The notes under the pieces were generated by a model that had not been told where the DNA came from, searched no databases, and saw only the letters and a program-made list of their open reading frames with translations. This document shows, in pieces, positions 7,378 through 16,312 of a stretch of DNA of 64,000 nucleotides. Source of the DNA: Actinomycetota bacterium. GTDB lineage: Bacteria; Actinomycetota; Acidimicrobiia; Acidimicrobiales; AC-14. The stretch is from positions 1 to 64,000 of the forward strand of contig JBFMCT010000010.1 of the NCBI GenBank assembly GCA_040754375.1. Reading direction: 5' to 3'. Numbering within the stretch: position 1 is the stretch's first letter; each line of letters opens with the position of its first letter. Both the position numbers and the translations under genes were made by a program.

Positions 7378-8067
7378 ATGGTGCTGACCCGAGCTGGGGC
7401 TCTACAGGCGGGGCGGGGCGCACCGGCGCACCGGCGCCCGCGCCGGGCCCGGCCCGCCCGTAGGCTGGCGGCACTGGCCGCAGCCGGCGGCCTCGTCCTG
7501 TCCGCGTGCGGGGGCGGTGGGGGCGGTGGGGGCGAAGGCACCTCGGCGGCCCCCAGCCCGACGCTGCCCAGCCTCGAGGCGGCCCCGCCCACGACCGGGG
7601 GAGGCGGCGGTGACGCAGCCGTCCCGACCACCGGGACCACCGCTCCGAGCACGGCCCGCAGCGTGCTTCCCGATCTCGTGGTCGACGACGTGGGGGCCGG
7701 GACGAAGGTCAACCTGGCATCGTTGGTGCCCTCGGCCCAGCCCGTGCTGTTGTGGTTCTGGGCCCCCCACTGACCGACGTGCCGCCGGGAGGCCCCCGGC
7801 GTCGAGCAGTTCGCTCGGCAGCACCAGGACACGGTGAGGGTGGTCGGCCTCGGCACCCAGGACAGCCTGGGCGAGGCGCGCGACTTCGTGGCCCGTTACG
7901 GCACCACGTTCACCATGCTGTGGGACTCGTCTTTGCGGTCGTGGCGCGAGCTGCGCATCCCCGGCCAGCCCGCGGCCGTGCTGCTGTCCCCGGGTGGCGA
8001 GGAGGTCGAGCGCTGGCTGGGCCCCTTCCCCGAGCAGGAAGTGCTGCGCCTGGCCGCTCGTTACTGA
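7378..8067 (+). CDS. TlpA/ResA-like thioredoxin lipoprotein, candidate selenoprotein with in-frame TGA at the first active-site Cys
   Basis: Read through one TGA (7771-7773), the frame encodes 229 residues. It begins with a basic leader and a lipobox (LVLSAC near residue 44), then a Gly/Ser/Thr linker, then a TlpA-like thioredoxin domain: NLASLVPSAQPVLLWFWAPH, TGA, PTCRREAPGVEQFA and on to a typical C-terminal half (GQPAAVLLSPGGEE). The TGA is residue 132, exactly the first Cys of the CxxC motif, with Cys135 retained. The frame stays open, with no shift, for 98 codons beyond it and keeps the local codon bias. That argues for selenocysteine (H-U-P-T-C) over decay, but a nonsense mutation of TGC cannot be excluded. 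The neighbour is CcdA, the membrane electron donor for such proteins. Confidence 0.65.
7771..7804 (+). promoter_or_regulatory. TGA plus SECIS-like stem-loop
   Basis: Directly after the TGA, bases 7775-7804 can fold with stems CGAC/GTCG (7775-7778 with 7801-7804), GCCG/CGGC (7781-7784 with 7797-7800) and GGG/CCC (7787-7789 with 7793-7795) around an apical AGG. The apical loop lies about 16 nt from the TGA and has a G among its first two bases, as expected of bacterial SECIS elements. High GC makes chance stems likely, so this is support, not proof. Confidence 0.45.
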
Positions 8068-8077
8068 AGCCGGGCCG

Positions 8078-9007
8078 TTGATAGACGCTCCCTTGGCCCT
8101 CGGCTTCGCGGCTGGGATGGTGGCCGCTTTCAACCCCTGCGGGTTCGCGCTCGTGCCTGCCTACCTGGCCTTCTTCCTGGGCGGGGAGGACGGCGGGGAG
8201 GACGGCGGGGACGGCCAGGGGGGTAGGCCATCTCCCCGTTTGGCCCCGGTGGCTCGCGCCCTGGCCGTGGGCGGCTCGGTCACGATCGGCTTCGTAGCCG
8301 TCTTCGGGCTGGCCGGCCTGGCCACGACCGGGTTCTCGCTGGCCGTGCAGAGGGTGGCCCCTTGGGTCTCGGTGCCCATCGGGCTGGCCCTCACCGCCCT
8401 GGGGGTGGCCACCGTGGTGGGCTGGAAGCCGGCCTTGGCACTCCCCCGCCTGGCTGCCGGAGGCCGGCGGCGAGGCCTGGCGTCGATGACGCTCTACGGC
8501 GCCTCCTACGCCACCGTGTCGCTGTCGTGCACCCTGCCCATCTTCTTGGCCGCGGTGGCCACCACGTTCCGAGACGCCAGCCTGCTGTCGGGGTTGGCCG
8601 TGTTCGTCGCCTACGCGCTGGGAATGGGGACCGTCCTCACCGCGCTGGCGGTGGTCATGGCCCTGGCCCAGCAGCCCCTGGCCGCTGCCTTCCGCCGGGC
8701 CGTGCCCTTCGTGACGCGCGCTGGGGGCGGGTTGCTCGTGCTGGCCGGGGCCTACGTGACCTGGTACGCCGTCTACGAGATCCGCCTCCAGAACGACGAC
8801 GGCACCGGCGAGGGCATCGCCGCCGGCCCGGTCGTGTGGGTCACCCGCTGGTCAGGACAGGTCTCCAACTGGATCGACACCGTAGGCAGCGGACGGATCG
8901 CTCTGGCTGCCCTCGTCCTGGTGGCCCTGGCCGCCGCGCTCCAACGGCTGCGGGCCCGTGCCCGGTCCCGGCCGGCCGCCGTCGGTCCCGGCGAGCCCGC
9001 CCCCTGA
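8078..9007 (+). CDS. CcdA/DsbD-type thiol:disulfide electron carrier, membrane
   Basis: This polytopic membrane protein has the CcdA signature: a first helix with AAFNPCGFALVPAYLAFFLG and a fourth with YATVSLSCTLPIFLA, which supply the two redox cysteines (NPCG and SCTLP). CcdA takes electrons from cytoplasmic thioredoxin and passes them to extracytoplasmic thioredoxin-like proteins. I chose the TTG at 8078, 10 bp after the lipoprotein stop, because the first conserved helix begins almost at once; a longer frame would overlap the lipoprotein gene. The loop after helix 1 has a GGED/GGDG repeat. The lipoprotein next door is its probable partner. Confidence 0.88.
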   Translation: MIDAPLALGFAAGMVAAFNPCGFALVPAYLAFFLGGEDGGEDGGDGQGGRPSPRLAPVARALAVGGSVTIGFVAVFGLAGLATTGFSLAVQRVAPWVSVPIGLALTALGVATVVGWKPALALPRLAAGGRRRGLASMTLYGASYATVSLSCTLPIFLAAVATTFRDASLLSGLAVFVAYALGMGTVLTALAVVMALAQQPLAAAFRRAVPFVTRAGGGLLVLAGAYVTWYAVYEIRLQNDDGTGEGIAAGPVVWVTRWSGQVSNWIDTVGSGRIALAALVLVALAAALQRLRARARSRPAAVGPGEPAP

Positions 9008-14587: not shown

Positions 14588-14905
14588 TTGTCCGACAGCA
14601 ACGGCGCCGGCCAGGAGCCCGACTGGGCCGCTGAGACGGTCGGTCGTCTCGAGGAGTTGATCGACAAGGTCCGGACGCAGACGACCGACCGGGTCGTGAT
14701 GGTCGCCCGGGCCGTCGTCTACGGCCTGCTGGTGGCTGTCTTGGGGCTCATGGCCGGCATCCTGCTGCTCATCGCCTCGGTCCGCGCCCTCGACGCGCTC
14801 ATCCCCCAGGAGGTGTGGCTCACCTACCTGATCGTCGGGGCAATATTCACGGCGGCTGGACTGTTCGTCTGGTCCAAGAGGCAACCCCGCACGGAGGGTG
14901 CGTGA
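14588..14905 (+). CDS. Small membrane protein, phage-holin (DUF1469)-like
   Basis: The 105-residue protein has a charged N-terminal amphipathic stretch (ETVGRLEELIDKVRTQTTD) followed by two transmembrane helices (VVYGLLVAVLGLMAGILLLIA and TYLIVGAIFTAAGLFVW) and a short basic tail, the typical holin-X/DUF1469 layout. TTG start. It overlaps trxB by 4 bp (GTGA), so it is translationally coupled to the thioredoxin reductase. Such proteins are frequent in front of actinobacterial trxB but their role is unknown. Confidence 0.75.
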   Translation: MSDSNGAGQEPDWAAETVGRLEELIDKVRTQTTDRVVMVARAVVYGLLVAVLGLMAGILLLIASVRALDALIPQEVWLTYLIVGAIFTAAGLFVWSKRQPRTEGA

Positions 14906-15849
14906 ACGACGATATCGAAGAGGTCATCATCATCGGCTCGGGACCGGCGGGCCTGACGGCCGCCATCTACACGGCCCGAGCCAACCTGCGCCCCCTGATG
15001 CTGGAGGGCGAGCTCACGTCGTCCTCCGACCAGCCCGGCGGCCAGCTCATGCTCACCACCGAAGTCGAGAACTACCCGGGCTTCGTCGACGGCATCCAGG
15101 GCCCCGACCTCATGGCTAACTTCCGGGCCCAGGCCGCTCGCTTCGGCACCCGCATCGTCACCGAGCGGGCCGAGCGGGTCGACTTCTCGTCCCGGCCCTT
15201 CGGCGTGTGGACGCGCGACAACGAGTACCGCGCCCATTCGGTGATCATCTCGACCGGAGCCCAGGCCCGCATGCTGGGCCTCGAAGCCGAGAAGCGGCTG
15301 CTGGGCCATGGCTTGTCCACGTGCGCCACCTGTGACGGCTTCTTCTTCCAGGGCCTGCCCATCGCCGTCGTGGGCGGCGGGGACTCCGCCCTCGAAGAGG
15401 CGCTGTTCCTGACCAAGTTCGGCCAGAAGGTGTCGGTCGTGCACCGGCGTGACTCGCTCCGGGCCTCGAAGATCATGCAGGAGCGGGCCTTCAAGAACGA
15501 AAAGATCGAGTTCGTCTGGGACACGGTCGTCACCGACCTGGTGGGCGACAAGCGCCTCGAAGGCGCCCAACTGCGCAACGTCAAGACGGGCGAGCAGTCG
15601 GTCCTGGCGGTGAGCGGCCTGTTCGTGGCCATCGGCCACGTCCCCAATACCGGCTTGTTCGCCGGCCAGCTGGCCCTCGACGCCAACGGCTACATCCTCA
15701 CCCACGACGGGACCCGTACCAGCGTGGAGGGCGTCTTCGCGGCCGGGGACGTACAGGACCACGTCTACCGCCAGGCCATCACGGCCGCCGGCTCCGGCTG
15801 CATGGCGGCCATCGACGCCGAACGGTGGCTGGAGGACCAGAAGGACTAA
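14902..15849 (+). CDS. trxB: Thioredoxin-disulfide reductase
   Basis: The 315-residue flavoprotein reduces thioredoxin with NADPH in the cytoplasm. Visible motifs are the FAD-binding GSGPAGLTAAIYTARA near residue 11, the redox pair CATC at residues 141-144 inside STCATCDGFFF, the NADPH site VVGGGDSALEEALFL near 155, and the closing FAD motif GVFAAGDVQD near 275. Length is normal for the low-molecular-weight class. The GTG start overlaps the previous gene. trxA follows after 130 bp with its own ribosome site. Confidence 0.97.
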   Translation: MNDDIEEVIIIGSGPAGLTAAIYTARANLRPLMLEGELTSSSDQPGGQLMLTTEVENYPGFVDGIQGPDLMANFRAQAARFGTRIVTERAERVDFSSRPFGVWTRDNEYRAHSVIISTGAQARMLGLEAEKRLLGHGLSTCATCDGFFFQGLPIAVVGGGDSALEEALFLTKFGQKVSVVHRRDSLRASKIMQERAFKNEKIEFVWDTVVTDLVGDKRLEGAQLRNVKTGEQSVLAVSGLFVAIGHVPNTGLFAGQLALDANGYILTHDGTRTSVEGVFAAGDVQDHVYRQAITAAGSGCMAAIDAERWLEDQKD

Positions 15850-15979: not shown

Positions 15980-16312
15980 ATGGCAACCGGGATCACCGAC
16001 CTCAGCGACACGACGTTCGACGAGGAGATCGGCGCGGCCGAAGTCCCGTTGCTGGTCGACTTCTGGGCCGAGTGGTGCCACCCGTGCCGGATGGTCGCGC
16101 CCGTCCTGGAGCAGATCGCCGGTGAGCAGGAGGGCAAGCTGCTGATCCGCAAGCTCAACGTCGACCACTCCCCCGACATCGCCCGGCGCTACGAGATCTT
16201 CAGCATCCCCACCCTGCTGCTGTTCAAGGACGGGGTGCTCAAGAAGCGCATCGTGGGCGCCAAGGGCAAGGGACAGCTCATGAGCGAGCTGGCCGAGTTC
16301 ATCGACGCCTGA
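15980..16312 (+). CDS. trxA: Thioredoxin, with a WCHPC active site
   Basis: The 110-residue protein is a single thioredoxin fold with the redox motif FWAEWCHPCRMVAPVL at residues 33-36, cis-proline SIPTLLLF near residue 75 and the end motif GAKGKGQLMSEL. The residue pair between the cysteines is His-Pro instead of the usual Gly-Pro, a change known to raise redox potential in DsbA-like proteins. It is preceded by a GAGAGAGG-type ribosome site and pairs with the trxB gene upstream. It would feed CcdA, ribonucleotide reductase and repair enzymes. Confidence 0.95.
   Translation: MATGITDLSDTTFDEEIGAAEVPLLVDFWAEWCHPCRMVAPVLEQIAGEQEGKLLIRKLNVDHSPDIARRYEIFSIPTLLLFKDGVLKKRIVGAKGKGQLMSELAEFIDA

Follow-up and report, generated by a model that had tools for sequence, protein, structure and literature searches.

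An in-frame TGA in a gene for a thioredoxin-like protein can mark a selenocysteine (Sec) codon, a broken gene or an error in the sequence. This question is raised by a gene, named tlpU here, in the window analyzed in this study (the whole 64-kb stretch of DNA), where TGA occupies the place of the first Cys of the active site.

The tlpU reading frame

7378..8067, forward strand: tlpU, putative Sec-containing TlpA/DsbE-like lipoprotein gene, with TGA 7771-7773 taken as Sec and TGA 8065-8067 as stop
7771..7773, forward strand: in-frame TGA at the first-Cys position of the active-site motif FWAPH-U-PTC

A first-pass annotation had described the frame at 7378-8067 as open but for a TGA at the first Cys, and our re-reading agreed. 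The frame begins with ATG at 7378, contains a single internal TGA (7771-7773) within ...FWAPH-TGA-PTCRREAP..., and ends with TGA at 8065-8067. The run after the internal TGA is clean and in frame as described, but it comprises 97 sense codons rather than 98. GC3 was 0.86 and 0.93 in the two halves around the TGA, a bias like that of real genes in this DNA. By itself the open run is weak evidence, since 97 or more open codons come after 221 of the 1166 TGAs of this GC-rich window, and the selenoprotein claim therefore has to rest on conservation. Elsewhere in the window, an ORF at 5-1138 starts with a long, degenerate G/V-rich repeat that is followed by a glycosyltransferase-like part; its start is possibly wrong, placed over repeat DNA.

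Selenocysteine machinery of the source genome

The source genome (G000) comprises 3.5 Mb in 105 contigs and is 97% complete. The first-pass annotation had called for a search for selA, selB, selC and selD, and all four were present. The tRNA-Sec scored 64.8 bits (gathering score, 47) and was also called by ARAGORN as tRNA-SeC(tca). The selB gene, which adjoins selA, scored 293 bits against an NCBIfam cut-off of 242; the scores of selA and selD were 408 bits (cut-off, 268) and 347 bits (cut-off, 125), respectively. In addition, the formate dehydrogenase alpha subunit gene (FdhA; G000:C50:7226-10285, L153) matched TIGR01553 with 953 bits and carries its own in-frame TGA at the usual place. Thus, the organism possesses the full set of Sec genes, and its selenoproteins include at least one of the classical kind. 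A weaker, second formate-dehydrogenase-like match (80.9 bits) was found at G000:C17:7300-8466 (L155, L156), with one internal TGA and pieces in different frames; this may be a molybdopterin oxidoreductase gene that is broken or has suffered a frameshift.

Conservation of the TGA and its co-distribution with tRNA-Sec

We searched whole genomes for tlpU homologs, covering 397 genomes of the same order and a phylum-wide sample of Actinomycetota. Matches were found in 184 of the 397 order genomes. Among the matches listed, homologs with an in-frame TGA occurred in 95 genomes, and the best homologs lacked TGA in 11. The position of the TGA was read from DNA only at fetched loci, the number of stops alone being known elsewhere; wherever DNA was read, the TGA lay at the same site, in FWAPHU-P/T/S-x-C and close variants. 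The alignment of homologs that the first-pass annotation had proposed thus yielded a column at which the large majority of close homologs have TGA, rather than one in which all have Cys. In 16 relatives, the domain around and after the TGA, about 130 amino acids, showed 51-63% identity to the query, and this conservation around and beyond the TGA is the decisive evidence for the tlpU site. The nearest Cys forms, too, have His before the active site, with FWAPHC at L092, L109, L116, L125 and L147.

Among the matches listed, tRNA-Sec was present in 87 of the 95 TGA genomes and in 2 of the 11 no-TGA genomes, compared with 235 of 397 overall. Fisher tests of tRNA-Sec against the TGA homolog gave 5e-15 (87/95 versus 235/397) and 3e-7, p-values that overstate independence since the genomes are related. 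The tRNA-Sec match was absent from 8 of the 95 listed TGA genomes, which draft assembly or a strict filter could explain. When seven named genomes were checked singly, tRNA-Sec was found in all three with the Sec type and in none of the four with the Cys type. In the named collection, nearly all matches were metagenome-assembled genomes of Acidimicrobiia; Ilumatobacter nonamiensis YM16-303 has two copies, and its genome contains tRNA-Sec. The phylum-wide sample contained one TGA-bearing homolog outside the order (G494), identical in sequence to locus L094.

A tree of 105 domains required three or more exchanges of Sec and Cys on branches with good support, and several Cys forms fell inside the Sec group, for example those of Microthrixaceae. 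The direction of these changes is uncertain, with many deep forks of the tree unresolved. Nearer home, no close ortholog was found in nine other genomes of the same family (G001-G009), all of which have tRNA-Sec, so that tlpU is patchy among its closest relatives; these genomes presumably use Sec for other proteins. Many genomes had two Sec-type copies close together (about 0.6 kb to 1.7 kb apart), indicating that Sec was kept through duplications.

Loci with two nearby Sec-type copies: L030, L031, L033, L035-L040, L042, L045, L046, L048, L051, L069, L072, L073, L112-L114

Both types occur together at L056 (3442 and 4184): a paralog of the Cys type (FWAPWC) lies about 0.7 kb downstream of the Sec-type TlpA gene, and the opposite strand carries a CcdA-like gene close by.

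A covarying hairpin downstream of the TGA

7801..7819, forward strand: candidate bacterial SECIS hairpin with a 7-bp stem and apical loop AGUUC, which begins 34 nt past the TGA
7784..7800, forward strand: upstream hairpin with loop AGGCC, 16 nt past the TGA; strong here, poorly conserved in the family

Across the family, the conserved stem pairs nucleotides 31-36 after the TGA with nucleotides 42-47 around a five-base loop; the hairpin at 7801-7819 counts one extra pair below it. RNAalifold, unprompted, recovered precisely this stem and no other structure. Over 41 distinct sequences, 97.2% of the cells of the stem could pair, versus 22-44% when the partner strand was slid by 1-3 bases. In the same sequences, 15 cells were changed on both sides of the stem, and the observed covariation was reached by none of 500 shuffles. 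All 93 distinct Sec genes formed five or six of the six pairs, with the loop AGUU in 93 of 93 and covariation from C-G to U-A within the stem; seven Cys homologs formed only one to three pairs.

The stem also leaves its mark on the protein. In pair 32-46, the third position of one codon bonds with the second position of another, so that a change in the RNA pairing is accompanied by a change of residue in the protein: GTC or CTC (Val/Leu) goes with Arg, and GTT or CTT with Gln, with few exceptions. The Ala codon within the stem was GCT in 87 of 93 Sec genes, versus 78 of 676 Ala codons further downstream.

Published rules for bacterial SECIS elements (bSECIS) specify a loop of 3-9 nt, a stem of 4-16 bp, G in one of the first two loop positions, a spacing of 16-37 nt and a minimum free energy (MFE) of at most -7.5 (PMC13188914). 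The 7801-7819 hairpin agrees with every one of these, with a 5-nt loop (AGUUC), 7 bp, 34 nt and -10.1 kcal/mol; G is at the second loop position and is followed by U, and the spacing of 34 nt comes close to the published upper limit. Stem, G and MFE together lay within the rules in 68 of 79 family members. A covariance model built on this region scored the tlpU site at 74.5 bits versus 17.7 bits for the next match in the genome (C35), which we rejected as a SECIS: it is not behind a TGA in a coding frame.

The first-pass annotation had noted a SECIS-like hairpin. One does exist, but the conserved hairpin is the second (7801-7819), not the nearer and stronger-looking one at 7784-7800. In tlpU itself the first hairpin, with loop AGGCC, a spacing of 16 nt and -13.9 kcal/mol, likewise conforms to the bSECIS rules, as would be expected if it were the working SECIS. 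Across Sec genes, however, a stem of at least five contiguous pairs was found in only 35 of 79, and 62.6% of its cells pair, versus 97.2% for the second hairpin. It is therefore improbable that the first hairpin is the working element; it is probably accessory or formed by chance.

Reading of the TGA

We consider it very probable that tlpU encodes a selenoprotein in which TGA 7771-7773 is read as Sec, and we infer Sec insertion from the comparative evidence: the candidate put forward by the first-pass annotation was supported by the conserved TGA, the sel genes, the covarying hairpin and the co-distribution with tRNA-Sec. In the proposed mechanism, SelB and tRNA-Sec would be recruited by the bacterial SECIS hairpin 31-47 nt downstream of the TGA, within the coding region, and would decode the TGA as Sec.

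Two other readings have to be weighed against this one. The single TGA in tlpU, together with the lack of a close ortholog in the other genomes of the same family that were searched, is what a nonsense mutation, a pseudogene or a sequencing error in one strain would produce. Such an accident is excluded by the TGA column common to about 95 genomes among the matches listed: dozens of independent genomes share this TGA, along with a frame that is conserved beyond it and a covarying RNA hairpin, and we give this reading next to no credence. The first-pass annotation had also argued against a lone error, on the ground that His precedes the TGA; its conclusion stands, but the His is the family norm (FWAPHU) and no anomaly. 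Read-through as such needs only some sense codon, and a code change by which TGA is read as Trp or Cys would supply one. However, tlpU itself and the neighboring degV and ccdA-like genes terminate at TGA, and the genome has all four sel genes. Moreover, the TGA form tracks tRNA-Sec across genomes, and the SECIS-like hairpin accompanies the TGA form and is missing from the Cys forms. A change of code is accordingly extremely unlikely, and reading as Sec remains our strongly preferred explanation.

Protein family, fold and active site

7465..7509, forward strand: putative signal peptide core and lipobox LVLSAC, with the presumed lipidation Cys at about residue 44 (translation read by eye)

The read-through tlpU product exceeded the gathering scores of the Pfam models AhpC-TSA, Redoxin and Thioredoxin_8, and the matched stretches span the TGA; AhpC-TSA and Redoxin scored best. 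The NCBIfam ResA, DsbE and TlpA equivalog models gave 38.6/170, 34.7/123 and 23.7/230 bits (score/curated cut-off), respectively, all far below the cut-offs. An AlphaFold model showed a thioredoxin-type fold with a pLDDT of 97.4, and the closest solved structures were M. tuberculosis 1lu4 and DsbF, followed by ResA. The second (resolving) Cys was invariant, and the Glu three residues later and the proline in what is presumably the cis-Pro loop were nearly so. These features suggest that the product is an exported TlpA/ResA/DsbE-DsbF-type protein with a predicted thioredoxin fold, a presumed lipid anchor and a UxxC site. Sec would stand in for the N-terminal, nucleophilic Cys, and the resolving Cys, the Glu of CxxCxxE and the expected cis-Pro would be retained.

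A CcdA-like neighbor and the possible electron route

8078..9007, forward strand: CcdA/DsbD-TM-like membrane protein with Cys residues in NPCGF and SLSCTLP; TTG start 10 bp past the tlpU stop
14890..15849, forward strand: thioredoxin reductase (TIGR01292, above cut-off), a possible cytoplasmic electron source
15980..16312, forward strand: thioredoxin, which may supply the CcdA-like protein with electrons from the cytoplasm

The first-pass annotation had named the adjacent gene CcdA. The protein is CcdA-like, as six of seven relatives match Pfam DsbD_TM (best E-value, 3.2e-10) and both Cys are invariant, but its own match (E = 0.05) is below the Pfam cut-off. A CcdA-like gene was linked to the tlpU family in 8 of 79 other loci, and is the next gene downstream at L094 (Sec) and at L109 and L125 (Cys); the TlpA-CcdA pair thus recurs in Sec and Cys forms and in distant lineages. 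ORF clustering of the named loci revealed no shared functional neighborhood: neighbors vary by lineage and CcdA is present in a minority only, so that context gives no function beyond CcdA in that minority. At L068, L098, L102, L104, L110, L118, L120 and L131, an oppositely oriented gene family recurs upstream, beside the Sec gene; its members may be molybdopterin oxidoreductases, as judged from their sequences.

The simplest account is that the tlpU product is a surface reductase recharged through CcdA, with a route, direction and substrate that we infer. It would reduce or exchange disulfides of exported proteins outside the membrane and be recharged via the neighboring CcdA-like membrane protein; the electrons would come from thioredoxin and thioredoxin reductase in the cytoplasm, whose genes lie 7-8 kb from tlpU. 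We lean toward this role and regard the electron route as tentative, because CcdA linkage is a minority arrangement. A selenoprotein that acts independently of the CcdA-like neighbor, as an oxidase/isomerase or a peroxide-reducing enzyme, is a real but lesser possibility. The rarity of CcdA linkage speaks for it, as do the best-scoring AhpC-TSA and Redoxin models and the solved structures closest to the model, the secreted 1lu4 protein and DsbF of M. tuberculosis; the closest relatives in mycobacteria are regarded as oxidases. However, the UxxC motif with the Glu of CxxCxxE is ResA/TlpA-like and not peroxidase-like, and the adjacent CcdA-like gene recurs beside Sec and Cys forms in distant lineages, which argues for the reductase role.

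Relation to known selenoproteins

The best sequence-profile and structural matches to the tlpU product were M. tuberculosis DsbF (3ios) and the MPT53/DsbE-like protein (1lu4), actinobacterial exported disulfide oxidoreductases with 30-31% identity to it in the structure comparison; both have Cys at the position of the tlpU Sec. ResA, CcmG and TlpA with CcdA resemble tlpU in fold, CxxCxxE pattern, membrane-side location and the logic of a CcdA partner but have Cys where tlpU has Sec. Two NCBIfam families of Sec-containing thioredoxin-fold proteins share the Trp-Ala or His-Sec context, NF041054 (WAxxUGC, ResA-like) and NF047660 (HUIPC, thioredoxin-like). NF041054 differs in its Sec motif (UGC) and gave 21.8 bits against a cut-off of 300; NF047660 did not match the tlpU product at E 0.01. 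None of the NCBIfam selenoprotein models reached its cut-off on the full tlpU protein, and the best was far short on the family members tested. Haft and Tolstoy reportedly described new selenoprotein neighborhoods in 2025, with the HUIPC motif and others.

A 2026 review listed 119 prokaryotic selenoprotein families and subfamilies (PMC13188914), among them a UGC TlpA protein and a number of UxxC proteins that belong to the Prx-like, redoxin and thiol-disulfide isomerase types (Table 1 therein), so that the kind of protein is known. Like the tlpU product, the UxxC families have a thioredoxin fold, Sec at the N-terminal Cys position and AhpC-TSA/Redoxin Pfam matches. Compared by description only, they differ in that the review text names no Actinobacteria or Actinomycetota hosts for them, and the tlpU family is set apart by FWAPHU, a putative lipobox, the AGUU SECIS at 34 nt and CcdA linkage in some loci. 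The suggestion in the first-pass annotation of a new extracytoplasmic redox arrangement must accordingly be toned down, given these known UxxC TlpA, redoxin and Prx-like proteins and the CcdA linkage in only 8 of 79 loci. Open-access literature on selenoproteins with Acidimicrobiia, Ilumatobacter or DsbE/CcdA yielded no description of the Acidimicrobiia lineage. The family seems to be widespread in the class Acidimicrobiia and apparently uncatalogued there before, and an earlier description under another name is possible.

Implications

Annotation pipelines that stop at TGA truncate tlpU at its active site and can thereby overlook a redox enzyme of the cell surface in a class of actinobacteria that is abundant but has received little study. 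We tentatively propose, as something quite possible, that in much of Acidimicrobiia one branch of the extracytoplasmic disulfide system depends on selenium. In this branch a Sec-containing DsbE/DsbF, in places charged by its own CcdA and often in tandem copies, would have a distinct type of SECIS, with an AGUU loop and far spacing, that dictates the protein stretch E-Q-F-A-R/Q. With its two copies and tRNA-Sec, Ilumatobacter nonamiensis YM16-303 makes the claim directly testable in a named strain. The repeated exchange of Sec and Cys, in step with the presence or absence of tRNA-Sec, offers a natural test of why an extracytoplasmic thiol enzyme keeps Sec.
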